A stretch of DNA of 64,000 nucleotides from Acidobacterium sp. (GTDB taxonomy: Bacteria > Acidobacteriota > Terriglobia > Terriglobales > Acidobacteriaceae): assembly GCA_003166955.1 (NCBI GenBank), contig PMUI01000086.1:62001-126000 (forward strand). Reading direction: 5' to 3'. Positions 7,966 through 20,017 of the stretch are shown here, one piece after another. The notes below the pieces were generated by a model. It had not been told where the DNA came from. It worked only from the letters and a program-made list of their open reading frames with translations, and ran no database searches. Every line of letters starts with the position of its first letter. Within the stretch, counting starts at the first letter, position 1. The position numbers and the translations under genes are program-made.

Positions 7966-9341
7966 TATTCGAGAGGCTTCAGGTCTTCGAATGTCGTCGG
8001 GATGAGCTCGGCGACGGTGGGATGGATATGCACGGAGTGGGTAAGCAGCGACGCGGGTTGGCGCGCATACATCGCTGTGAGAATGCAGTGAACAGCCTCG
8101 TCGCCGCCGGTGCCGAAGACGGTTGCGCCGAGGATTTGCTGCGTCTCAGCATCGACGAGGACCTTGATGAAGCCGAAGGTCTCGCCTTTTTCGATGGCGC
8201 GATTGACGCGGGTCATGGGGCGCTTGCCGATGAGCGCGGCCTTCTTTGTTGCGCGAACCTCGGCTTCGGACATGCCTATTTGCGCGAGGGGAGGATCGAT
8301 ATAGAGGGCGCTGGCGGGAATGCGGTTGCTGATGCGGCGTCCTGCATTGTCGAGCAGGTTTTCAGCGGCGATTTCGTAGTCGTTGTACGACGTGTGGGTG
8401 AAAGCGCCGCGGCCGTTGCAGTCTCCGAGGGCGAAGATGCCGGCGACGCTGGTGCGCAGCTGATCGTCGACGGGGATGAAGCCGCGCTCGTCGGGCGTTA
8501 TCCCGGCGGCTTGCAGATTCAGATCATCGGTATTGGGTGTGCGGCCGACGGCGAGCAGGATGTGGGAGCCGTCGATGTGCGGCTCACCTTCGTCGCAATC
8601 AAGGCCGACGGAGACCTGGCTGCCGCTCTGTTCAAGGTGAATGCAGTTGGCGTTGAGACGGACGTCGATGCCTTCGGAGTCGAAGATTTCGCGAATCACT
8701 TTGGAGGCGTCCTCATCCTCATGCGGGGCGAGGCGGGAACTCTTGTCGACGATGGTGACCTGCGATCCGAAGCGGCGAAACATCTGTGCGAATTCGAGGC
8801 CGACGTAGCCTGCACCCACAACGATCAGGTGCTCGGGAAGCAGCTCGATATCGAGGAGGGTGGTGCTGGTGAGAAACGGGACGGAATCGACGCCGGTCAT
8901 TTTGGGGACGGTGGGCCGCGCGCCGACGTTGAGAAATATCTTCGGGGCCTCCAGAACATCATCGTCGACGCGCATCGTAGTGGCCGATTCGAAGGCGGCG
9001 GTTCCGGTGAAGACGGTGCAGTTTTCGGTTCCGCGCAGCAATTTTTCGACGCCGGTGCGGGAGTTGAGCACGATGGCATCCTTGCGGGCTTTAACGGCGC
9101 GCAGATCGACGGCGACGGGACCGGCATGCACGCCGAAGTCGGCGCCGCGGCGGGCGAGATGAGCAGCGTGGGCGCTGGCGACCATGGCCTTGGTCGGCGT
9201 GCATCCGTTGTTGACGCAGGTGCCGCCGAACAGATGGCGCTCGACCATGGCGACTTTCCAGCCCGCGCCGGCAAGGCGAGTGGCGAGCGAAGGACCGGCC
9301 TGACCTGCGCCCACGACGATCGCGTCGAAACTGTATTTCAT
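7965..9341 (-). CDS. Class I pyridine nucleotide-disulfide oxidoreductase (MerA-like, no Hg-binding Cys pair)
   Basis: A 458-residue flavoprotein starting MKYSFDAIVVGAGQAG, with an FAD-binding GxGxxG motif. The redox-active disulfide is at C42/C47 in GGTCVNNGCTPTKA. The NAD(P) site is in LIVVGAGYVGLEFA, the second FAD contact is FALGDCNGRGAFTHT, and the C-terminal dimer domain carries the catalytic base in HSVHIHPTVAELIP. It lacks the vicinal Cys pair at the C-terminus and the N-terminal metal-binding domain of mercuric reductase, so Hg(II) reduction is unlikely. The longer upstream frame is a shadow of the DUF4126 gene. ATGA overlap (4 bp) with DUF4126 upstream and TAATG with yiaK downstream mark one operon. 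Confidence 0.9.
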   Translation of the reverse strand: MKYSFDAIVVGAGQAGPSLATRLAGAGWKVAMVERHLFGGTCVNNGCTPTKAMVASAHAAHLARRGADFGVHAGPVAVDLRAVKARKDAIVLNSRTGVEKLLRGTENCTVFTGTAAFESATTMRVDDDVLEAPKIFLNVGARPTVPKMTGVDSVPFLTSTTLLDIELLPEHLIVVGAGYVGLEFAQMFRRFGSQVTIVDKSSRLAPHEDEDASKVIREIFDSEGIDVRLNANCIHLEQSGSQVSVGLDCDEGEPHIDGSHILLAVGRTPNTDDLNLQAAGITPDERGFIPVDDQLRTSVAGIFALGDCNGRGAFTHTSYNDYEIAAENLLDNAGRRISNRIPASALYIDPPLAQIGMSEAEVRATKKAALIGKRPMTRVNRAIEKGETFGFIKVLVDAETQQILGATVFGTGGDEAVHCILTAMYARQPASLLTHSVHIHPTVAELIPTTFEDLKPLE

Positions 9342-9799
9342 CGAAGCCTCAGGATGGGGATGATGGCGATGGCGAGCGCCGCGATGTCTTCGAGAATGGC
9401 AGCGGGCCAATCCCGGCCAAAGGCGGAAGCCAGTTTGGCGCGAACTGCAGCGCCGCCGAGCGTGCCGACGACAGCACCGATGGCCCCGAGGCACAGGCCG
9501 ATGAGAAGTTTGCCTCCGGATGCTCCGACCGTGGCGCCAACCAGCGAGCCGCTGAGGATACGGATGACGAAAGAGGGCGGTTGCTTGCGGCTGGGCGTCT
9601 TCGGCAGCTTGTCGGCGACGAGTTCGCCCGCGGCGAGGATGGTGAAGACGAGGGCAGTGACGCGGTAACTCATCAAGGCGACGTACGTCTCCCCGACGTT
9701 GAGCAGATTGAGGCGAGCCGCCCAGCTGACGACGGCGGGAGCGAGCATGGAGCGCAGGCCCGCTACCAGGCCAACGAGAAAGGCACAAAGCAGAAGCAT
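9338..9799 (-). CDS. DUF4126 integral membrane protein
   Basis: A 153-residue protein with four hydrophobic segments (about residues 1-25, 43-60, 80-100 and 103-125) and the glycine-rich GSLVGATVGASGGKL and GLCLGAIGAVVGTLGG stretches typical of DUF4126. The function is not established. The 3' end overlaps the start of the disulfide reductase by 4 bp, so the two products are made together. A role in supplying the reductase with a membrane partner is possible but only an inference. Confidence 0.8.
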   Translation of the reverse strand: MLLLCAFLVGLVAGLRSMLAPAVVSWAARLNLLNVGETYVALMSYRVTALVFTILAAGELVADKLPKTPSRKQPPSFVIRILSGSLVGATVGASGGKLLIGLCLGAIGAVVGTLGGAAVRAKLASAFGRDWPAAILEDIAALAIAIIPILRLR

Positions 9800-9855: not shown

Positions 9856-12800
9856 TTATTGGTAGTTACCGATCAACACGAAGGGAGCCCAATAATAAGG
9901 ATGAGCATACGACGTTGAGGCGGGTGGAGTCGCGGGTTCGCCCACGATTTGTATGCCGCGGCCGGTCGCCGATTGCGGGGCACCGGGGGATCCGTGCAGG
10001 AGGGCAAGCTGCGCCCGGCGCAACGCTTCGGCTTTGCCGATCGCGGGTTCCTTGACCCAGCGCGAGTAAAAGTCGCTCATGATGCGGCTGGTGCTGGCAT
10101 CGTTCACGTCCCACAGTGTGGCGAGGACGGCTTCAGCATCCTTCTGCTGGGCGACCATGCCGAGGCTGTCCATTTCGAGCCCATCATTCGCGGTGTCACC
10201 CTTCGCGGTGCTGCAGGCGGAGAGGGTCAGCAGGCGGGTTCCGTGGAAACTGACGGCCGAGTTCTCGAGTTGCGAGAGGGACAGGGGAAATCCCTGCGGA
10301 TCGCCGGCGTCGTTGCCGCCGAGCATCAGGTAGGGCTCGGTTCCGCTGCCGGCTTCGAGAACGAAGTGGCTCGCGATATGGACGACGGGAAATCCGGAAC
10401 CGGGACCCAGCTGCGCTTTGAGTGCGGCCCAGGTGAAGCGCTCGTTGGGGAGCAGGATTCCGTCGATCGGACCGTGGGATTCCGGATCGGCAGGGTCGTG
10501 CACCACGGCGTCGAGTTCAGGAATGACGCCGGGCAGCGCCGGCAGCCCGCCGTAGCTCTTCGATAATCCCACGGCGAGAACGCGCAACGTCGACTTGTCA
10601 GCGCCGGGGGCGGCCATGTGGCCATAACTTTCCGGCGTGAAGAGGACGTTGTTAAAGCGCTCGGCCATGTAGCGGTGGCCATCGTAGAGCGCGGCCATGG
10701 GCAGGTAGCGCATGGCACCGTCGAGAGACCAGAGCAGCGTGGGTGCGCGGCCTTTCTCTTGCGGGGCTCGCTCGATCGCGGCCAGTTCGGCTTCGAGGGG
10801 CGCGACGACGATGGAATACATTTCGGCAAGGTGCGGCTTGGGATCGGACGAGGGCGTGCGCAGTTCTTTGCGCAGCAGCTGCACTTTGTCGTTGAGCTGC
10901 GCGGGCGTGGCTTTCAGTTCATACTTCTTGCGGGACTGCGGAGTGATGACGATGGCGTACGCGTGCTCGTCGCCGAGGAGCAGGCGGATGCCGATGATGT
11001 GGGGGCCGAGTTCAGCCAGCGTGTTTTGGAGCCGGCTGACTTCTGACTTCTCCTGGTTCAGCAGCGCGTTCGCGTTTTGCGTTCCGGCGTTCTGCGCCAG
11101 CTCGGGATAGAGGGTCTTGCGGAAGAAGTCGGTAACGCCGCTGTTGCCGGATTCGATTTTCGTTTCGAGGGCTTTGAGCTGGGCGGTTTCAGCGGGAGTG
11201 CGATTGGTCTTGCCCAGCAACGCGGCGTATTGCGCGCTCAGCTCTGTGAGGGCGACCGCGGTCTGCTCGTGCGCAACAAGGTCGGCTTCAACCTGTTGCT
11301 CGTTGGGCGTGAGATTGAGCGGCGTCGCATGAGGATCGGGGTGGTCCGCTGCGCCGATGACCACTTCCTGCAGTTCCTGTTTTTTGAGGAGGTCGAGGAC
11401 CTGTTCGGCTTCGCCGAGACGGTTCGCTTGCACGAGGAGCTCGGCGAGGATTCGGTAGGTGGCGGACTTCGACTGCGCAAACCGCTCCTGGAGACTCTGA
11501 TCGAGGCCGCTGATGTTTCTGCGCATCAGCTGATACGAATTGACGGCTTCGGTGCCGAAGAAAATCGCCTCCTCCAAACGATGCTGGGTGCGGAAATCGA
11601 GCATGAGTGACGCGTCGATGCCACCCTGGAGGTCGGGATCGCCAGCGGCTTTCGCGAGCGATAATGCGGCGAGTTTTTGCGGCAGAGCCTGGTCGAGTTT
11701 TCCCTGGTCCGACAACACGCGGCCGATGCTGTTCAACGCGAAGGCCTCACCGCGGCGGTTCTGTACTTCGCGCCACATGGCGAGCGCCTGATAGTCGAAG
11801 TCGAGCGCTTTGTCGCGCTGGCCGAGGTCGGAGTATGCGCGACCGATGTGATTCAGCACTGCCGCCAGGCCGCGATGGTCCTGGGTTTCGCGCCAGATGT
11901 CGAGAGCCTGGTTGTAGAAGTCGAGGGCTTGTTGCGGGTCGCCGAGCTGGACGCGGATGCGGCCGATGTCGTAAAGCGCGAGGGCTACGCCGCTGCGATT
12001 GCCGACCTGGCGCCAGAGGGGCAGCGCCTGATTGTAGTAGTCGAGGCCCCGCTGCTTCTGGCCGAGGTCGTCGTAGATGCGGCCGATGCCATTCAGCGAG
12101 GCGGCCTCGCCTTCAGGGTGGCCGAGTTGGCGCCACAGGGGGAGCGCGGCCTGATAGGACTCAAGCGCTTTTTCTTTCTGGCCGAGATTCGTGTAGGTTC
12201 GGCCGAGGTTGTTGAGGGTCTGCGCCTCACCGCCGATTTCACCGACGGCGTGCCAAAGCGGGAGAGCCTGATTGAGATTGTCGAGCGCCTCCTGGCTGCG
12301 GCCCATGTCGGAATAGCAGCGGCCGAGATTGTCGAGAGCGCTGGCTTCGCCGCCGCGGTTGTTGAGCTGGCGCCACATGGGCAGCGCCTGATTGAGGACC
12401 TCGAGCGCTTTATCGTGCTGGCCGAGGTCGTTGTAGACGCGGCCCATGTTGTTGAGCGTGGAGGCTTCGCCCATCAGGATGTTGAGCTGGCGCCACACGG
12501 GCAGGATTTCGTTGAAAAGGTCGAGCGCTTTTTGTTCCTGCCCCAGATCGGTGAGAATGCGGCCTTCGACATTCTTGCTTTGCGCCTGCTGGCCTTTGCT
12601 GGTTTCGATGGAGAGGGCCTGCTCGCAATAGTCGAGGCCTTTTTGGGGATCGCCGGCTTCGCGGTAGAGGCTCGCGAGCGTGTTCAGCTCGGTGGCTTCG
12701 CTTCTTGTATTGTGCGACCCGCGAGCGTCGGCGAGGGCCTGCTCGTGCTCGGAAATGAGTCTGTGCAGGCTTCCGGGCTGCTGTGCGGAAACTGGAGGCG

Positions 12801-12864
12801 CTGACACGCCGGCGATGAGACAGACTGCGATCAGGGTTGTTGTTGCCAGATTCGCCGCGTTCAT
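9856..12864 (-). CDS. Secreted TPR-CHAT protease
   Basis: A 1002-residue protein with a signal peptide (residues 1 to about 27, ending VSA-QQ). Nine tandem TPR units of 40 residues follow (about residues 45-400), each resembling GEASTLNNMGRVYNDLGQ followed by KALEVLNQALPMWRQL. A coiled-coil-prone linker leads to a C-terminal CHAT domain, a caspase-like clan CD peptidase. The likely catalytic His is in VVHIASHFVLE (about residue 832) and Cys in LTLSACSTAKGD (about residue 885). The near-identical repeats also show at DNA level as a 120-bp period. It follows the caspase-fold gene by 34 bp on the same strand. The substrate is unknown; TPRs usually bind the partner or substrate. Confidence 0.9.
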   Translation of the reverse strand: MNAANLATTTLIAVCLIAGVSAPPVSAQQPGSLHRLISEHEQALADARGSHNTRSEATELNTLASLYREAGDPQKGLDYCEQALSIETSKGQQAQSKNVEGRILTDLGQEQKALDLFNEILPVWRQLNILMGEASTLNNMGRVYNDLGQHDKALEVLNQALPMWRQLNNRGGEASALDNLGRCYSDMGRSQEALDNLNQALPLWHAVGEIGGEAQTLNNLGRTYTNLGQKEKALESYQAALPLWRQLGHPEGEAASLNGIGRIYDDLGQKQRGLDYYNQALPLWRQVGNRSGVALALYDIGRIRVQLGDPQQALDFYNQALDIWRETQDHRGLAAVLNHIGRAYSDLGQRDKALDFDYQALAMWREVQNRRGEAFALNSIGRVLSDQGKLDQALPQKLAALSLAKAAGDPDLQGGIDASLMLDFRTQHRLEEAIFFGTEAVNSYQLMRRNISGLDQSLQERFAQSKSATYRILAELLVQANRLGEAEQVLDLLKKQELQEVVIGAADHPDPHATPLNLTPNEQQVEADLVAHEQTAVALTELSAQYAALLGKTNRTPAETAQLKALETKIESGNSGVTDFFRKTLYPELAQNAGTQNANALLNQEKSEVSRLQNTLAELGPHIIGIRLLLGDEHAYAIVITPQSRKKYELKATPAQLNDKVQLLRKELRTPSSDPKPHLAEMYSIVVAPLEAELAAIERAPQEKGRAPTLLWSLDGAMRYLPMAALYDGHRYMAERFNNVLFTPESYGHMAAPGADKSTLRVLAVGLSKSYGGLPALPGVIPELDAVVHDPADPESHGPIDGILLPNERFTWAALKAQLGPGSGFPVVHIASHFVLEAGSGTEPYLMLGGNDAGDPQGFPLSLSQLENSAVSFHGTRLLTLSACSTAKGDTANDGLEMDSLGMVAQQKDAEAVLATLWDVNDASTSRIMSDFYSRWVKEPAIGKAEALRRAQLALLHGSPGAPQSATGRGIQIVGEPATPPASTSYAHPYYWAPFVLIGNYQ

Positions 12865-12898
12865 CTGTGCCTCTTCACCATTGCGGATAAGGCCGTTT

Positions 12899-15295
12899 CT
12901 ACTGCGTGGCCTGCTGAGGAACGCTGTGAACGGTGGTGAGTCCGATGCCCCAGTTGGTAGGGACGTGGCCGGGATCGCCGCGCGTGCCGCTGCTGGTGTT
13001 GCTCAGCAGTTGCTCCAGCGGGGACTGCGCGCCACGCGAGCGCGAGACCCCCTCGAAGTTGAGCACATAGGGATCGGACAGGGGCTGCGCGGTGCTCAGC
13101 AGAATAAAGGTGTCCACGCCGAAGGGCGGTCCGATACGCAGCGTCGGTGCGCCGGGTAGCGGAAACTGCTTGCCGATGTCGGACTCGTTGGGAAACTGAT
13201 TGTTCGAATTTCCTGCTGGGTAAAGAACGGTGCCCTTGCCGTGGCAGTCGATGTCGAGAATGTAGACCCAGCGTTTGTCGCTGACTTCGGTTGTGGACTG
13301 TAAGCCCATCTTCAGCAGATCGCCCTGATGGAGGGGCTTGTCGCCGATGGATGAAATGCCGGCCGAAGCAGGAGTCAGAGAGAGAGAATAATACGGCGCA
13401 TGCGACGCGTCGGCGGGACTGTTGGCCATCTCGAGCCAGCCATGCACCTTGGCCAGCAGCGACGCATAGCGGTTCAGGGTTGCCGCGCCTGATTCGATTG
13501 CGCCGGCGTCGGCCATTGCGATCCAGTCGCTGCGGACGGGATATGGTGAGGTTGGCGAGCAGCCGGGACTGTGCGGGGGCAGGTTGGGGGACGGAGGTCC
13601 GGCGGACAGCTCATTCTTGTGGAACCACGCCCAGGCGGGGCCTTTGGAAGTGAGTGTGCCGGTCAATGCGTATTCGGCGCTGGCGAGGTCGGCGGCGGTT
13701 TGCACCGCGCTGCTCGGATCCGCGGGCAAAAGTTGCGCGGCCAGTTCGCGTGAAGGTGGAAGGTTGACCCAGAGTTTTGCGCCGTCGGGAGCACGATGCA
13801 GGGCCTGCGCAGTGAGGGCCGCTCCCAGCGGAATCGGCGCGGGCGCACCGGCTTTTTGCAGCGTCCAGGCCGTTCCGTTCCAGCTCAGCATGTGCGTCCA
13901 TGGTTCTTCCGCGGGGTCGGAGACGGTGGTGATGCCAGCGGCCTGGATCTGTGCGGCTGCGGCGAGGATGTCCGCCTGGGACAGCGTCGCAGGCCAATGA
14001 AAGACGCGCAGCGGCGGGGAGGGAGCGGGGCTCCACTTTGTCATTTCAAAAATATCCCCGGTTTGCACCGTCGCGTGGGCGGGACTGACGACCGTCGCCA
14101 CCGAGCGGGCGATGCCGTCGAGGGCAATGACGCGCAACTGGGTCTTCTGGCCGTCGCTGCTCGTGCTTGAGGTGAACTCCGTGCCGGGTCCGATTCCGGA
14201 GACGCGGCCAACATCGAGCCAGACATTGCCGTTGCTTGCGGCGCCCAGCACGGCGGCGCGAGTCGCGCCGGAGCCGGACTTTGCTCCGCCGAAGAGCGGC
14301 TGCTCGCGACGTTCCGCGGTGGCGTCCAGATCGGGATCCTCGTCGGGGACATCTTCGTTGCCGATGACGGCTCGCACGCGCCGATACACGACTTCAGCCG
14401 GTGCGTCGGCGGGAAGAACCTGCAGCGCCTCGATCAGAGCAGCGGTAAACGCGCCGTGCGCCTCGGTCGGGGGATTCGTGTCGGGCGTTTCTTTGGAGCT
14501 CTGGTCCTGCTGCACCGCGGAGAAGACCAGCGCTGGATTGTCCGCTCGTTGCGTGGGTCCGGGACGCGGGTCGCCATTCGGGAGTACCTCGGGAGGCTCG
14601 GCAACGTCGCGCGAATCGAAGGGCAGATCGCGCTCGCGGTACTTCGGGTTGATGCCACGGCTGATGCCGCCGCTGTGGCAATTGTCGAAGATCAGAGTGA
14701 GATGAATGCCCTTGTCGAGGGCGGCGTTGAAGATGCGGGTCATCTCGCGGTCACGCACGTCGTAGCCGCCTTTGTAGGCGTCGGCGGGGACCAGGGTGCT
14801 GTCCGCGTGGACATACTGACCGTTCACCAGGACGGTGAGTTTCGTTCCCTTGCTGTTGACGCGCAGCGATCCGTGACTCGCGACGTACAGGACGACGGTA
14901 TCGCCACGCTGCGGTGCATCGACCAGATATTTCTGCATGGCGGCGAGGATGCCGTCGTGGGTGGCCTGGCCGGCAGGGAGCAGAACCAGGCCGGGAGCGG
15001 GGTGAGGCGGATTTGGGTTGGTGAGCAGAACGACCTGACTCGCGGGAAATCCGAACCTGGGGCTGGTGAGCAGATCGGCCATGGACTGAACATCGTTGAC
15101 GGTGCCGTCGAGGTTCTCGAAATATCCGAGTTCACAGCGTCCGTAGACGCAGCCGGGAGGATGGGTTGGCGTGGTGCCGGGAGGCTCGTAGGTATCGATG
15201 CCGATCAGAAGGGCGTGTTGCGTCTGCGCGGAGGCCGTGGCGGAACACAGAACACTGCAGAAACAGAGGAAAACGGCGGCACAGCCGGATTTCAT
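12899..15295 (-). CDS. Secreted caspase-family (peptidase C14) protein with DUF4384-like C-terminus
   Basis: A 798-residue protein starting MKSGCAAVFLCFCSVLC, a signal peptide cut near ASA-QTQ. This ATG is preferred over an upstream in-frame start because the signal peptide directly follows it. The caspase/metacaspase fold spans about residues 25-320: HALLIGIDTYE strand, His141 in YVASHGSLR and Cys206 in LIFDNCHSGG. The C-terminal region (about 640-790), with the WVYILDIDCHGKGTVLYP stretch and a terminal FILLSTAQPL strand, resembles DUF4384. It is the first gene of a likely operon with the TPR-CHAT protein. Proteolysis at basic or acidic sites in the periplasm or outside is plausible but unproven. 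Confidence 0.88.
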   Translation of the reverse strand: MKSGCAAVFLCFCSVLCSATASAQTQHALLIGIDTYEPPGTTPTHPPGCVYGRCELGYFENLDGTVNDVQSMADLLTSPRFGFPASQVVLLTNPNPPHPAPGLVLLPAGQATHDGILAAMQKYLVDAPQRGDTVVLYVASHGSLRVNSKGTKLTVLVNGQYVHADSTLVPADAYKGGYDVRDREMTRIFNAALDKGIHLTLIFDNCHSGGISRGINPKYRERDLPFDSRDVAEPPEVLPNGDPRPGPTQRADNPALVFSAVQQDQSSKETPDTNPPTEAHGAFTAALIEALQVLPADAPAEVVYRRVRAVIGNEDVPDEDPDLDATAERREQPLFGGAKSGSGATRAAVLGAASNGNVWLDVGRVSGIGPGTEFTSSTSSDGQKTQLRVIALDGIARSVATVVSPAHATVQTGDIFEMTKWSPAPSPPLRVFHWPATLSQADILAAAAQIQAAGITTVSDPAEEPWTHMLSWNGTAWTLQKAGAPAPIPLGAALTAQALHRAPDGAKLWVNLPPSRELAAQLLPADPSSAVQTAADLASAEYALTGTLTSKGPAWAWFHKNELSAGPPSPNLPPHSPGCSPTSPYPVRSDWIAMADAGAIESGAATLNRYASLLAKVHGWLEMANSPADASHAPYYSLSLTPASAGISSIGDKPLHQGDLLKMGLQSTTEVSDKRWVYILDIDCHGKGTVLYPAGNSNNQFPNESDIGKQFPLPGAPTLRIGPPFGVDTFILLSTAQPLSDPYVLNFEGVSRSRGAQSPLEQLLSNTSSGTRGDPGHVPTNWGIGLTTVHSVPQQATQ

Positions 15296-15432: not shown

Positions 15433-16425
15433 TTGCGGACGGACCTGATTGTGGCGCTGAACTCTGAAATTCATGTCATCGATTCGCATACGGCGGGCGA
15501 GCCGACGCGAGTCGTTATTCGCGGAGGACCGGATCTCGGCCATGGGCCGCTGGAGGAGCGTCTGCGGCGATTTGCCGCGGAGCACGACGATATTCGCTCG
15601 GGGGTAGTGAACGAGCCGCGCGGGTCGGAGGTGGTGGTGGGGGCGCTGCTGGTGGAGCCTGTAGACGCAGGGTGTGCCGCCGGCGTGATTTTCTTCAACA
15701 ACGTTGGGTATCTGGGCATGTGTGGGCACGGCACCATCGGCGTGATGGCGACGCTGGCGTTTCTGGGGCGCATCACGCCGGGAAAACACAGGATTGAGAC
15801 GCCGGTGGGCGTGGTGTGTGCAGAGCTGCGCAGCGATGGGCGCGTGACGGTCGAGAACGTTGCCAGCTATCGCCATCGCAAGGGCGTGAGCGTTGAGGTT
15901 CCGGGATTCGGCCGGGCGATGGGCGACGTTGCGTGGGGCGGGAATTGGTTTTTCCTGACGGAGAATGCGCCGGCGCCGCTGACCCTGGAAAATCGAGAGA
16001 CGCTGACGAGTTTTGCGGTTGCGGTGAAGGCCGCGCTGGATGCCAGCGCGATCACCGGCGCTAACGAGAAGGCGATCGACCACATCGAGTTGTTTGCTGC
16101 GTCGCCGGAGCCTGGAATCGACAGCAGAAATTTCGTCTTGTGCCCGGGGAATGCCTATGACCGCTCGCCGTGCGGCACGGGAACGAGCGCGAAGCTGGCG
16201 TGTCTTGCGGCGGATGGAAAGCTTGCGCCGGGCCAGTTGTGGCGGCAGGAGGGAATTCTGGGGACGGTGTTCGAAGGCAGCTATCGAGTGCCGGAGGGCG
16301 AGCAGCGCGGAGTGATTCCAGCGATCACCGGGTCGGCCTGGATCACAGCGGAGAGCCGGCTGCTGTTGCAGGAGGATGATCCGTTCCGCGCAGGCATTCA
16401 GGCGCCGGTGTTGGCTGCGCCATGA
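15433..16425 (+). CDS. lhpA: 4-hydroxyproline 2-epimerase (proline racemase family)
   Basis: Converts trans-4-hydroxy-L-proline to cis-4-hydroxy-D-proline, the first step of hydroxyproline catabolism. The proline racemase fold is shown by [13 protein letters not shown], the catalytic Cys in [10 protein letters not shown] (about residue 97) and the second Cys in [11 protein letters not shown] (about residue 247). The first catalytic position keeps Cys, as in racemases and epimerases; trans-3-hydroxyproline dehydratases carry another residue there. The start is TTG 15433 or GTG 15451; the family usually begins a few residues before the IDSHTAGEP strand. The 3' end overlaps the next gene by 4 bp (ATGA), starting a five-gene operon. 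Confidence 0.9.
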
Positions 16426-17585
16426 ATCAATCCTGGGACGTGGTGGTTGTTGGCGGGGGAATTGTTGGCGCGGCGTGCGCGCGAGAATGCGCCAGCCGCG
16501 GGCTGAAGACCGCGGTCGTCGAGAGCGGAGTGGTTGGCGGTGGAGCGACGGCGGCAGGGATGGGCCACATCGTGGTGATGGACGATTCGCCGGCGCAGCT
16601 TGCGCTGACTCACTATTCGCAGAGTCTGTGGGTCGCGCTGGCGGAGCAGATGCCGGACGATGTGGAATTTGAGCGTTGCGGAACGCTGTGGGTTGCGGCG
16701 GACGACGAGGAGATGGACGAGGTTCGCCACAAGCAGGTCGTGTATGCAGGGGCGGGCGTGGCGACCGAGATTCTCGATGGCGATGCGCTGGCGGAGGAGG
16801 AGCCGCATTTGAGGCGACCGATGGCAGGAGCGCTGTTGGTGCCGTCGGATGCGGTCGTCTATCCGCCATGCGCGGCGGCGTGGATGATGCGAGAGGCGGT
16901 GCGAGCCGGGGCGACGCTGTGTTTGCCCCGGCGTGTTGTGCGGGCGGGGCAGGGCTGTGCTCGGCTCGATGACGGGAGTGAGTTGCACGCTGCGCGCATT
17001 GTGATTGCGTGCGGAGCGGACTCGATGCGGCTGCTGCCGGAGATCCCGGTTCGCAAACGCAAAGGGCATCTGGTGATCACGGATCGCTATCCTGGGCTGG
17101 TGCGTCATCAGCTCGTCGAACTGGGTTATCTCAAAAGCGCGCACTCGGTGACAGCCGATTCGGTAGCGTTCAACGTGCAGCCGCGCAGGACGGGACAGGT
17201 CCTGATCGGTTCCTCACGCCAGTTCGGAGACGAGGGAACCGCGGTCGATCATGCGATCCTGTCGGCGATGCTGGAGCGAGCGAAGTTGTATCTGCCGGAG
17301 ATCGGCTCGTGTTCGGCAATCCGCGTGTGGACCGGGTTCCGCGCTGCGACGCCGGATAAGCTGCCGCTGATTGGTCCATGGCCTGGAGACGAGACAGTTT
17401 TTCTCGCGACGGGACACGAGGGGCTGGGCATCACGACTTCACTGGCTACGGGACGCCTGGTCGCGGATCATCTGACGGAGGCGAAGGCAGAAATTCCAGC
17501 GGAGGCTTATCTGCCGCAACGATTCTACAAGCGAGCGAACGCCGGATTCGAGGGCGCCGCGCAAGAGAGCAATGCGCATGCCTGA
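16422..17585 (+). CDS. D-hydroxyproline dehydrogenase, DAO-type FAD subunit
   Basis: A 387-residue FAD-dependent oxidoreductase of the D-amino acid oxidase/glycine oxidase fold. It has [17 protein letters not shown] at the N-terminus and [15 protein letters not shown] near the C-terminus. Between the epimerase and two iron-sulfur partners it fits the catalytic subunit that oxidises cis-4-hydroxy-D-proline to 1-pyrroline-4-hydroxy-2-carboxylate (LhpB-type). It overlaps the epimerase stop by 4 bp and its own end overlaps the ferredoxin-like gene by 14 bp. The substrate comes from context and not from residues that can be read directly. Confidence 0.85.
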
Positions 17586-17829
17586 GGGGAAGCTCGTCGT
17601 TTCGCTGACGGTGAATGGCCAGCCGGTGAGCGCGACGCCGGAAACGACGGTCGCGGCAGCGGTTCTCATCGCTGGCGGGTACACCCGCGCATCGGTGAGC
17701 GGCGAGCCGCGCGCGCCGTTGTGCGGGATGGGCATCTGCTTCGAATGCCGCGTGTGGATCGACGGAAGGCAACACCAGCGCAGTTGCCAGATCCTGTGCG
17801 CGCCAGGCATGGACGTGCGCACGCCATGA
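17572..17829 (+). CDS. D-hydroxyproline dehydrogenase, small [2Fe-2S] subunit
   Basis: An 85-residue ferredoxin-like protein (Fer2_4 type). The cluster-binding cysteines lie in PLCGMGICFECRVWID, with a further Cys in QRSCQ. Such small 2Fe-2S proteins form the gamma subunit of three-part amine and imino-acid dehydrogenases and pass electrons between the two flavin subunits. It starts inside the end of the DAO-type gene (ATG 17572, or ATG 17578) and its TGA overlaps the next ATG by 4 bp, so the three subunits are translated in series. Confidence 0.85.
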   Translation: MRMPEGKLVVSLTVNGQPVSATPETTVAAAVLIAGGYTRASVSGEPRAPLCGMGICFECRVWIDGRQHQRSCQILCAPGMDVRTP

Positions 17830-19106
17830 GGGATTCGTCGGAGATGCGGTTCGATGTCGTCGTTGTTGGCGCGGGGCCAGCGGGCATCGCTGCGTCGGTC
17901 ACGTCCGCGCGTGAGGGCAGGCGTGTTGCGCTGGTGGACGACAATCTCGCCGCAGGTGGGCAAATCTGGCGATCGGGAGAAGCCTTGCCGCGAAACGCCC
18001 AGAAATGGATCGCCGCACTGCGAAGCTCGGAGGTGCTTCATCTCCGCGGGTTGCAGGTTTTCGATCATCCGGCCGCTGGCGTGATTCTTGCGGAGCGCGG
18101 TGAAGATTGTGTTGCGTTGCGGTATAGCAAGCTGATCCTCGCGACAGGCGCGCGGGAGTTGTTCCTTCCGTTTCCGGGATGGACCTTGCCCAACGTGTTC
18201 GGAGCCGGAGGGCTGGATGCGATGGCGCGGGGCGGATTGCCGGTAGCCGGCAAGCGCGTGGTCGTTGCGGGAACAGGGCCGCTGCTGCTGGCGGTGGCTG
18301 CGCATCTGGCTGCGCGTGGCGCGAAGATTGTTGCGATCTGCGAGCAGGCTCCTCTGCGCAGGGTCGTTGCGTTCGCGGGAAGGATGTTGAAGCAGCCCGG
18401 CAAGCTGCTGCAGGGAGTCGGCTATGGGTGGGGTGTGCGATCGAAGATTCATTTCAGTTGCTGGCCTGTGGCGGCGTATGGGAAGACCGCGATCGAGAGC
18501 GTGACGCTGCGCAAAGGGAAGAAGCAATGGACCGTCTTTTGCGATTTTCTGGGGTGCGGTTTTCACCTGGTGCCGAATACCGAGCTGGCGCAGCTGATTG
18601 GTTGCCAAATCGACGAAGGATTTGTGGCGACTGACGAGCTCCAGCAAACATCTGTGGAGAATGTGCTGTGCGCGGGCGAGCCGACGGGCATCGGCGGCGT
18701 CGAAATGGCGCTGATCGAAGGCCAGATCGCAGGGCTGGCGGCTGTGGGTGCTGTGGAAGAAGCGCGAAGGCTCGCGCGGCGGCGAAGGAAGATGCTCGGT
18801 TTTGTGAGCGCGCTGCGGAAGGCGTACGCGCTTGATCCGGAACTGCGAAGGCTCGCGGCCGAGAACACCATCGTTTGCCGCTGCGAGGATGTGGCGCATG
18901 GAGCGTTGCGAGAGCACCGTTGCTGGCGCGATGCGAAACTGCAAACGCGGTGCGGCATGGGTCCTTGCCAGGGACGCGTTTGTGGCGCAGCGACGGAGTT
19001 CCTTTTTGGCTGGCGTGCGGATGGGGTTCGGCCGCCGGTCTTTCCTGCTCTTGTGTCGAGCCTGGCTGGAGCAAACTTCGTTTCTGGAAATTCTTCGGAG
19101 GCCTGA
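17826..19106 (+). CDS. D-hydroxyproline dehydrogenase, FAD/NAD(P) subunit with C-terminal BFD-like [2Fe-2S] domain
   Basis: A 426-residue flavoprotein. It starts at ATG 17826 (MRDSSEMRFDVVVVGAGPAG); the open frame upstream is a shadow of the ferredoxin gene. The N-terminal FAD motif is VVVVGAGPAGIAASV and a second dinucleotide motif is VVVAGTGPLLLAVA. The C-terminal 60 residues hold four cysteines in the BFD-like pattern VCRCEDV, then RCGMGPCQGRVCG. This is the typical large subunit of hydrogen-cyanide-synthase-like and octopine/hydroxyproline dehydrogenases. It likely takes electrons from the DAO subunit to the respiratory chain. TGATG joins it to the deaminase gene. Confidence 0.87.
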   Translation: MRDSSEMRFDVVVVGAGPAGIAASVTSAREGRRVALVDDNLAAGGQIWRSGEALPRNAQKWIAALRSSEVLHLRGLQVFDHPAAGVILAERGEDCVALRYSKLILATGARELFLPFPGWTLPNVFGAGGLDAMARGGLPVAGKRVVVAGTGPLLLAVAAHLAARGAKIVAICEQAPLRRVVAFAGRMLKQPGKLLQGVGYGWGVRSKIHFSCWPVAAYGKTAIESVTLRKGKKQWTVFCDFLGCGFHLVPNTELAQLIGCQIDEGFVATDELQQTSVENVLCAGEPTGIGGVEMALIEGQIAGLAAVGAVEEARRLARRRRKMLGFVSALRKAYALDPELRRLAAENTIVCRCEDVAHGALREHRCWRDAKLQTRCGMGPCQGRVCGAATEFLFGWRADGVRPPVFPALVSSLAGANFVSGNSSEA

Positions 19107-20017
19107 TGAAGTGGTCTGGTGTAATGCCCGCAATGACGACCTGCTTTGACGAGCGGCTGCAGGTCGATCACAGTTTCATGACGCGTCACGCGCGCTGGAT
19201 GCTGGCGAACGGCTGCACGGGGATCATCTCGCTGGGATCGCTGGGCGAGGCAGCGACGCTGAACTTCGCTGAGAAGGAAGCGATCCTGCGCAACGTGACG
19301 GCGGCGGCAGGAGGAGCGCCCGCGGTTGCGGCGATCTCGGCGCTGTCGACCGCGGAGGCGGTGGCGCTGGCGAAAGCGGCGGAGCAGGCCGGATGCGCGG
19401 GGCTGATGGTCCTGCCGCCTTACGTCTACCCTGGAGACTGGCGCGAGACAAAGGTGCACGTGGCGGCGATTTTTCGCGCCACGAAGCTCTCGGGCATGCT
19501 GTACAACAACCCGGTTTCCTATGGGACCGATTTTGTTCCGGAGCAGATTGCGGAGCTCGCGGAGGAACACGAGAACTTTGCGGCGGTCAAGGAGTCGAGC
19601 ACCGACGTGCGGCGGGTGACGGCGATTCGCGCGCTGTCCGGAGATCGGCTGAAGATATTTGTTGGTGTGGACGATGCCATTGTCGAGGGAATCGGAGCGG
19701 GCGCGGTGGGCTGGGTCGCGGGACTGGTGAATGCGTTTCCGGCGGAGTCCGTCGCGCTGTTCAACTATGCGATGAACGGAGAGCGGGAGAAGGCGTTCGA
19801 GCTGTATCGGTGGTTTCTGCCGCTGCTGCGCATGGACACGGTTCCGAAGTTCGTCCAGCTGATCAAACAGGTACAGCAGGAAACCGGGACCGGCTGCGCG
19901 TGGGTGAGGCCGCCGCGCCTTGAAGTGATCGGTGAGGAACTGGAAGCGACGCGAGCCGCGGTACAACACGCGATGGCTACGCGTTTAGCTGTTCGCGGCA
20001 CGGCGTTTCCAGGCTGA
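19106..20017 (+). CDS. lhpC: 1-pyrroline-4-hydroxy-2-carboxylate deaminase (DHDPS family)
   Basis: A 303-residue (beta/alpha)8 lyase of the dihydrodipicolinate synthase/N-acetylneuraminate lyase family. The Schiff-base Lys is K162 in FAAVKESS, the family Tyr is Y133 in GMLYNNPVSYG, and LGSLGEAATL is the phosphate/carboxylate loop. In this operon it should convert 1-pyrroline-4-hydroxy-2-carboxylate to alpha-ketoglutarate semialdehyde with loss of ammonia. ATG 19106 overlaps the preceding TGA by one base. The final pathway enzyme, alpha-ketoglutarate semialdehyde dehydrogenase, is not in this window. Confidence 0.88.
   Translation: MKWSGVMPAMTTCFDERLQVDHSFMTRHARWMLANGCTGIISLGSLGEAATLNFAEKEAILRNVTAAAGGAPAVAAISALSTAEAVALAKAAEQAGCAGLMVLPPYVYPGDWRETKVHVAAIFRATKLSGMLYNNPVSYGTDFVPEQIAELAEEHENFAAVKESSTDVRRVTAIRALSGDRLKIFVGVDDAIVEGIGAGAVGWVAGLVNAFPAESVALFNYAMNGEREKAFELYRWFLPLLRMDTVPKFVQLIKQVQQETGTGCAWVRPPRLEVIGEELEATRAAVQHAMATRLAVRGTAFPG

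Follow-up and report, generated by a model that had tools for sequence, protein, structure and literature searches.

Caspase-like peptidases are described among the effectors and proteolytic steps of bacterial conflict systems (PMC8195603 and PMC7159879, in excerpt), and the CHAT domain is likewise named in such systems (PMC10907252, in excerpt). In type III-E CRISPR (Craspase, gRAMP/Cas7-11), Csx29 cleaves Csx30 at a single place within a small flexible loop (PMC10028731, in excerpt). The multi-metacaspase operons listed in the excerpted text of PMC3501461 comprise 20 with more than one C14 gene from four bacterial groups, Acidobacteria not among them, and NucA-trypsin systems carry a nuclease as well as coupled STAND or EAD1 parts, according to the excerpt of PMC7159879. 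Here we describe two adjacent genes, A and E, on the minus strand of a 64,000-nucleotide stretch of Acidobacterium sp. (the window; assembly GCA_003166955.1, contig PMUI01000086.1; G000:C79, 62001-126000 in our labels, where G, C and L numbers denote genomes, contigs and loci). Gene A encodes a predicted exported metacaspase-like peptidase and gene E a predicted exported TPR-CHAT peptidase. It is well supported that A-E is a reduced, two-gene version of an exported module of several peptidases, with A-B-C-D-E as its fuller version, and membership of such a module, taken alone, is highly probable.

Each of the described systems resembles this locus in part. With the plant type II and protist metacaspases (AtMCA4, AtMCA9, TbMCA2), protein A shares the caspase fold, the His/Cys dyad and two acids, Asp68 and Asp204, at potential S1 positions; unlike these, A is bacterial, predicted to be exported, longer by about 430 C-terminal residues, and encoded next to a CHAT and other peptidases. 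Protein E resembles Csx29 in consisting of a TPR array followed by a CHAT domain with His and Cys, and its CHAT profile weakly matches CHAT chains of the PDB (E-values 0.00017 to 0.08, the entry named Csx29 at 0.08). In contrast to Csx29, E is predicted to be exported (a simple rule finds a hydrophobic N-terminus in 15 of 16 homologues) and its partner gene encodes a caspase. The sequence-only reading had set E apart from the cytoplasmic Craspase-type CHAT proteins, and the N-terminal hydrophobic signal predicted in these homologues agrees with that distinction. Pfam and PADLOC showed neither Cas7-11 or Csx30 nor any other CRISPR protein in the ten genes flanking the pair (no search for Cas7-11 was made elsewhere in the genome), and a Craspase-type CRISPR partner was rejected on these ten genes. 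The multi-metacaspase operons share with A-B-C-D-E the presence of more than one C14 gene per operon; the word CHAT, however, is absent from the text of PMC3501461, and no exported set of this composition is described in the excerpt. The NucA-trypsin and EACC1 caspase conflict systems likewise have several peptidases per system and a proposed cascade (PMC7159879, in excerpt), whereas Pfam scans of A to E gave no nuclease, STAND or EAD1 domain and all five proteins are predicted to be exported. D scores 100 bits and A 29.2 bits with NF047832, the model of EACC1-associated caspases, both short of its cut-off of 140 bits. PADLOC-DB 2.0.0 returned only its generic 'caspase' and 'TPR' models for the module proteins, and assignment to a known anti-phage system was rejected for this reason. 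Full-text literature searches, whose scope excluded subscription papers and preprints, gave no title or abstract start on an exported caspase and CHAT module among the matches listed. We therefore file the module with the multi-peptidase clan CD systems, from which its predicted export and its A-B-C-D-E composition set it apart. The features of the pair are as follows.

12899..15295, minus strand: gene A, predicted exported metacaspase-like peptidase, 798 residues, ATG at 15295
15221..15295, minus strand: predicted Sec signal peptide of A, about residues 1-25 (from sequence; hydrophobic stretch ahead of the caspase domain in 36 of 37 homologues)
15092-15094, minus strand: codon of A Asp68, predicted S1-pocket acid (37 of 37; aligned to metacaspases)
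14873..14875, minus strand: codon of A catalytic His141 (invariant, 37 of 37)
14684..14686, minus strand: codon of A Asp204, predicted S1-pocket acid (37 of 37; aligned to metacaspases)
14678..14680, minus strand: codon of A catalytic Cys206 (invariant, 37 of 37)
9856..12864, minus strand: gene E, predicted exported TPR-CHAT peptidase, 1002 residues
12781..12864, minus strand: predicted Sec signal peptide of E, about residues 1-28 (from sequence; hydrophobic N-terminus in 15 of 16 homologues)
10378-10380, minus strand: codon of E His829, likewise invariant (16 of 16 E proteins)
10366..10368, minus strand: codon of E catalytic His833 (16 of 16 E proteins; 10 of 10 in the CHAT-domain alignment)
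10213..10215, minus strand: codon of E catalytic Cys884 (16 of 16 E proteins; 10 of 10 in the CHAT-domain alignment)

The two clan CD peptidases lie 34 bp apart on one strand, as the sequence-only reading had stated, and belong to separate Pfam families: A matches Peptidase_C14 (PF00656; E-value 5.6e-15, 56.1 bits with a cut-off of 21.4), E matches CHAT (PF12770; 7.2e-47, 160.6 bits with a cut-off of 24) as well as TPR_12 (4.6e-68). Protein A is composed of the signal peptide, a caspase domain (about residues 26-338) and a beta-rich C-terminal region with a DUF4384-like end that stays below the Pfam cut-off. Its open frame extends to 15424; the start at 15295 is preferred for its clean signal peptide, judged by eye. 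The count of nine TPRs given for E is fair, with eight found by a motif scan and one degenerate copy near residue 97 recognized by eye. The dyad His141/Cys206 proposed for A holds as claimed, and for E, where residues of about 832 and 885 had been named, the dyad stands with each number shifted by at most one residue. These residues are also conserved, being present in all 37 A and all 16 E sequences; the 10-row CHAT-domain alignment comprises seven E-type and three other proteins.

A structure model of A (mean predicted local distance difference test score, pLDDT, 82.2) aligns over residues 22-338 to the plant metacaspases AtMCA4 and AtMCA9 (Z about 27, root-mean-square deviation about 3), with Z = 27.2 to both 6w8r and 9n3e; a second structural comparison covers mainly residues 23-338. 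In profile alignments, D68 and D204 fall on acidic positions conserved in metacaspases, and Asp95 and Asp211 of TbMCA2 are named for a potential S1 pocket (PMC4357240, in excerpt). Judged by its sequence, A appears to carry the acidic S1 residues of Arg/Lys-cutting metacaspases, from which we infer a preference for Arg or Lys. In D, a further caspase of the module, H229, C292, D171 and D290 are invariant (12 of 12), and by analogy with A the same preference is probable.

The composition of the module was obtained from a contig scan over 84,980 species with the A alignment, which resulted in 77 loci. A gene caller predicted A in 68 of these; the 9 loci without a called A were left out of the gene maps, L087 among them, though it holds an A-E pair. 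According to the gene maps, A heads the operon in Acidobacteriaceae. The order A-B-C-D-E is found in L094, L095 (with B and E fragmented) and L099; shorter versions are A-C-D-E (L102, L106, L110), A-D-E (L091), A-B-E (L093, L098 and L115, the last with an extra B upstream and one unlabelled gene ahead of E) and A-B-C-D (L090, L100, L104). Of the 77 loci, 19 have an E-type gene, 15 have B, 12 have D and 11 have C, some of these genes lying apart from A or off its strand. A 4-bp overlap joins C and D in 10 of 11 loci. B, about 400 residues long, is a predicted substrate of the twin-arginine translocation (Tat) pathway by its twin-arginine motif, C (about 500 residues) has no firm family, and D (about 417 residues) is a second exported caspase with a C14 domain and an N-terminal part that is TPR-like by eye, Pfam giving no TPR there. 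Two short C proteins (L095, L110) are left out of the C alignment. The account of the locus as a pair is hence incomplete, as the module also includes the second exported caspase D and the Tat-exported B.

In the genome of the window itself, B-C-D is located on a separate contig (C87), so the window holds one half of a split module. Relatives harbor B-C-D (G008) or C-D (G002, G006, G010, G011). Downstream of B-C-D on C87 (L081 7149-9228, G000:C87), we note a 171-residue gene that is by eye similar to an extracytoplasmic function (ECF) sigma factor, as well as two small, apparently exported proteins; a regulatory link to B-C-D is possible.

All five parts of the module are predicted to leave the cytoplasm, A, C, D and E via Sec-type signals and B via Tat. 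Export was called when the best 12-residue mean hydropathy near the N-terminus exceeded 1.5, a heuristic rule rather than SignalP; two presumed non-exported proteins, used as controls, reached 1.16 and 1.43, below this line though close to it. By this rule, export is predicted for 36 of 37 A, 15 of 16 E, 12 of 12 D, 9 of 10 C and 14 of 15 B proteins, and the twin-arginine motif of B is invariant (15 of 15). The misses include the A of L139, apparently mis-started, and the E of L111. The n-region of E lacks a positive charge in the window genome; its orthologues in L057, L059 and L060 have one. The signal peptides that had been claimed for both window proteases are thus consistent with the hydrophobic N-termini of their homologues.

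Within the genus, 5 of the 12 genomes (G000, G002, G005, G006, G010) hold both A and an E orthologue, and in all five the genes are adjacent and in the same order, with gaps of 19 to 62 bp in the four relatives; the A of G002 is truncated at a contig end. Neither gene was found in six further genomes of the genus at the thresholds used. In the remaining genome, G011, about 65 residues of the start of A and a scrap of its C-terminus are left and the E orthologue is gone; the adjoining DUF4126 gene is open, as is its reductase gene up to the contig end. A and E were therefore lost jointly in G011, and the downstream genes were not lost along with them. The site (G011:C192, L067 1300-2400), with the decayed A and no E between the open DUF4126 gene and a proline-racemase gene, represents a natural loss of the pair. 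The corresponding neighbour in the window is the following gene.

9338..9799, minus strand: DUF4126 gene (Pfam), adjoining E, judged not to be in the module

The gap of 56 bp between E and this gene agrees with the coordinates given before. The suggestion that the DUF4126-reductase genes belong to the same system was rejected: relatives of the two genes occur in only 4 of the 77 A loci (L087, L088, L089, L103), all of the window's genus, and both genes persist in G011.

A and E also co-occur across the family. Profile matches were collected in 300 family genomes with cut-offs of E<=1e-20 for A, E<=1e-60 for E, E<=1e-40 for D and E<=1e-10 for B, giving 18, 14, 17 and 13 genomes, respectively. 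The matches of A include the G011 stub and a weak partial one in G080, and those of E a 40% paralogue in G011. Both A and E are present in 12 genomes, as compared to 0.84 expected (Fisher 1.8e-15), and beyond the genus in 6 as compared to 0.33 (p=3.3e-8), in tests that take genomes as independent, which related genomes are not. A strict count without G011 and G080 for A and without G011 for E retains 11 shared genomes of 16 with A and 13 with E (0.69 expected). In G340, G352 and G334, E is located on a different contig from A, with genes flanking both sides of each, so the co-occurrence does not reflect linkage alone; in G151 and G338 contig ends leave the A-E linkage undecided. The pairing is thus conserved, at odds with the possibility, raised beforehand, that homologues might almost never be paired. 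Distances in A and E are correlated for linked genes (17 pairs, r=0.94; 13 core pairs, r=0.71) and drop to r=0.41 for the core when the three unlinked genomes are added. We give this correlation little weight because it is expected for linked genes.

A wider set of 30 distant A genes from 28 genomes (Bryobacterales, Blastocatellia, Bacteroidetes, Nitrospira, Azospirillum and others) was used to count neighbours, by Pfam matches only and among the matches listed, 150 each of C14 and CHAT, a scope that applies to all of the following Pfam counts. Another C14 or CHAT gene lies within 10 kb of A in 26 of 30 cases; in the same genomes, the corresponding numbers are 28 of 96 for C14 genes away from A and 20 of 131 for CHAT genes. 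Some clustering is therefore general among clan CD genes, and it is far stronger for A genes. An earlier annotation of 30 distant loci with our own hidden Markov models (HMMs) had given 27 of 30, as compared to 1.17 expected, and was redone with this internal control; the Pfam recount drops L140 and adds a second A of G374, the two A genes of G374 counting as mutual neighbours. The neighbours are varied. For example, in G141:C131 (L061/L117) A is located between a 1839-residue WD40-caspase-WD40 protein and a 567-residue protein with two C14-like stretches, all on one strand, and in Nitrospira sp. UBA5699 (L122 9896-18062) an A homologue is followed by an HtrA/trypsin-like protease and a 1444-residue TPR-CHAT protein. 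Other distant A homologues adjoin other CHATs, and an A of 35-37% identity in G084 adjoins an M48-TPR protein. Weakly A-like exported caspases in L084 and L085 (G112:C134, G127:C82) each adjoin a caspase-FGE fusion; the FGE-sulfatase-type fold occurs in hypervariable proteins as well.

These counts bear on the explanation that no functional link exists, such that clan CD genes cluster by duplication or in shared islands and the co-occurrence reflects phylogeny. It would account for the proximity of other caspase genes to C14 or CHAT genes, and of the 12 co-occurrences 6 come from the genus, with the G011 stub counted as one. Speaking against this explanation, A genes exceed this baseline by far (26 of 30), the co-occurrence persists beyond the genus and for unlinked A and E, the two proteins come from different Pfam families, and G011 lost both while its neighbours were kept. 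Already weakened by these results, this explanation is very improbable.

A further property, common to A, B, D and E, is a conserved Arg-Gly pair. The motif was spotted and recorded while reading the alignments, after which all conserved adjacent residue pairs were ranked by the variability of their flanks; with the motif already in view, this ranking is suggestive and does not amount to a clean test. The first ranking used a threshold of 0.80 for E and 0.85 for the others, and both thresholds were later applied to A, B, D and E. At 0.85, Arg-Gly ranks 1 of 23 in B, 1 of 116 in D, 1 of 92 in E and 8 of 16 in A; at 0.80 the ranks are 1 of 37, 3 of 162, 1 of 159 and 16 of 27, respectively. No conserved Arg-Gly was found in an unrelated trehalase family (16 and 30 members). 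This single family was used as control because clustering of the neighbour proteins gave five clusters of at least 7 members, all of them A to E. The two candidate sites in the window are:

14654..14659, minus strand: A Arg213-Gly214, candidate self-processing site, weakest of the four (Arg in 37 of 37; pLDDT below 50 at 208-216)
9955..9960, minus strand: E Arg969-Gly970, candidate processing site, ranked first, located in a variable insertion loop late in CHAT

The positions of the four sites are non-homologous: just after the catalytic Cys in A, in the linker before the caspase domain in D, in the late-CHAT loop in E, and near the N-terminus in B, where the site falls into a low-confidence stretch of the model. 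At the position of the E site, Arg-Gly is present in 1 of 15 other CHAT rows, one row being cut off, and the loop itself is missing in 11 of the 15. The following residue is hydrophobic in D (12 of 12, one after Arg-Ala), Pro in 9 of 15 B proteins and of mixed kind in A. Among the 16 E proteins, 10 have I, V, F or L there and 3 have Pro, one row being truncated.

Pairing, module, invariant catalytic residues, predicted export signals and conserved Arg-Gly stretches are thus read directly from the sequences, and from them we infer the remaining elements of a mechanism, namely Arg specificity at P1, who cuts whom, the direction of control, the signal and the final substrate. A, and probably D, would act as Arg-directed metacaspase-type peptidases outside the cytoplasm and would cut short flexible Arg-Gly or Arg-Ala stretches in the CHAT domain of E, in the linker ahead of the caspase domain of D and near the N-terminus of B; A may also cut itself. 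E would be recruited via its TPRs as docking part, and the cut would switch it on or off, E then serving as second-step peptidase. For such a module, in which extracytoplasmic parts process one another by cleavage at Arg, the chance of the whole mechanism being correct is a little short of even. The two-step proteolytic cascade that the sequence-only reading had thought conceivable gains support from the predicted Arg/Lys S1 pocket of A and the conserved Arg-Gly loop of E; as to its steps, it stays conjectural. The further claim that A, D and E activate one another at Arg-Gly (or Arg-Ala) and release or activate B in the same way, forming a relay or death pathway wholly outside the cytoplasm, is doubtful. 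In only two genomes, G299 and G031, was an E-type gene found without an A; both lack the Arg-Gly in E, which fits the processing mechanism, though two cases prove little.

A number of observations weigh against Arg-directed processing between the parts. The Arg-Gly of A reaches only rank 8 of 16, family C has no conserved Arg-Gly in the same ranking, and D falls to 3 of 162 at the lower threshold; in wider clusters the conservation is below 85% in both D and E. D has Arg-Ala in place of Arg-Gly in G000, the window genome, as well as in G002, G006, G010 and G011, and Arg-Pro in G195, and it lacks the site in G276, G287, G239, G321 and the second G002 copy. Conversely, D keeps Arg-Gly in G008, G350 and G074, where A was not found, so the site in D does not need A. 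E paralogues without an adjacent A also have the motif, one G006 paralogue lacks it despite A, and one G011 paralogue has it despite an A stub. In addition, 6 of the 18 genomes with A have no E at E<=1e-60, the co-occurrence tests ignore the relatedness of genomes, and the baseline of 28 of 96 among the matches listed means that caspase genes cluster generally.

In the main alternative, A to E form one exported module without mutual cleavage: the co-regulated A, D and E would each process outside or envelope proteins, and the Arg-Gly stretches would be structural or autoinhibitory pseudo-substrate elements. The retention of Arg-Gly in D where A was not found speaks for it, as do the shuffled partners, with A-E, B-C-D, C-D and A-B also found alone, and the varied proteases next to distant A homologues, which resemble a tool box rather than a fixed cascade. 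Against it stands the occurrence of Arg-Gly in variable stretches at three non-homologous places, more than would be expected from structure only, as judged with one control family. We regard this alternative as possible, if rather unlikely, and retain the extracytoplasmic processing module as the preferred reading.

A different role is conceivable for B. Caspases and CHAT proteases are known to activate gasdermins, and by this likeness the module might serve extracytoplasmic defence or cell death: an envelope or phage signal would trigger A, A would cleave B, and B would damage the envelope. B is Tat-exported with a hydrophobic segment and is, in 15 of the 77 loci, second only to the 19 of E; A is patchily present (18 of 300 genomes), and related peptidases are named in conflict systems (PMC8195603, PMC7159879, PMC10907252, all in excerpt). 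However, the PADLOC matches are generic only and the ten flanking genes are metabolic by Pfam. B itself has no Pfam, NCBIfam or PADLOC match, no gasdermin profile having been run by name. Its model (pLDDT 63.5) has no PDB match at E<=0.001 and neither supports nor excludes a pore-forming or other fold. A defence or cell-death function is therefore improbable.

The genomic surroundings of the pair consist of metabolic genes. One flank encodes the glyS beta subunit, an O-methyltransferase, alcohol and lactate/malate-type dehydrogenases and a flavin disulphide reductase; the opposite flank a proline-racemase family protein, FAD-dependent oxidoreductases, a DHDPS-family protein and a trehalase (all by Pfam). 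The O-methyltransferase gave the only PADLOC match among the ten flanking genes, to the mad2 model. Adjoining the pair at 15433-20017, the proline-racemase, FAD oxidoreductase, pyridine-disulphide oxidoreductase and DHDPS-family genes form a cluster that we take to resemble a hydroxyproline catabolic set. A scan for promoters and terminators was uninformative (1 promoter-like site with 0.8 expected; 10 terminator-like sites with 5.8 expected, standard deviation 2.8). The whole window genome has 5 C14 and 5 CHAT matches. A separate locus of STAND type is present on its contig C121 (L075 6876-8786, 12978-17588), where about 4 kb separate a caspase without clear export signal from an nSTAND1-WD40 protein whose N-terminus weakly matches CHAT.

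In the excerpts of the papers cited here, caspase homologues and CHAT proteases of bacteria are for the most part treated as intracellular components of defence or cell death. With a conserved exported set of up to three clan CD peptidases that share one candidate cut site, the role of secreted caspases becomes a question for point mutants. The set also ties two unnamed exported families, B and C, functionally to these peptidases. If the cuts are real, the module would constitute a protease relay outside the bacterial cytoplasm, a possible parallel to the caspase cascades of eukaryotes.

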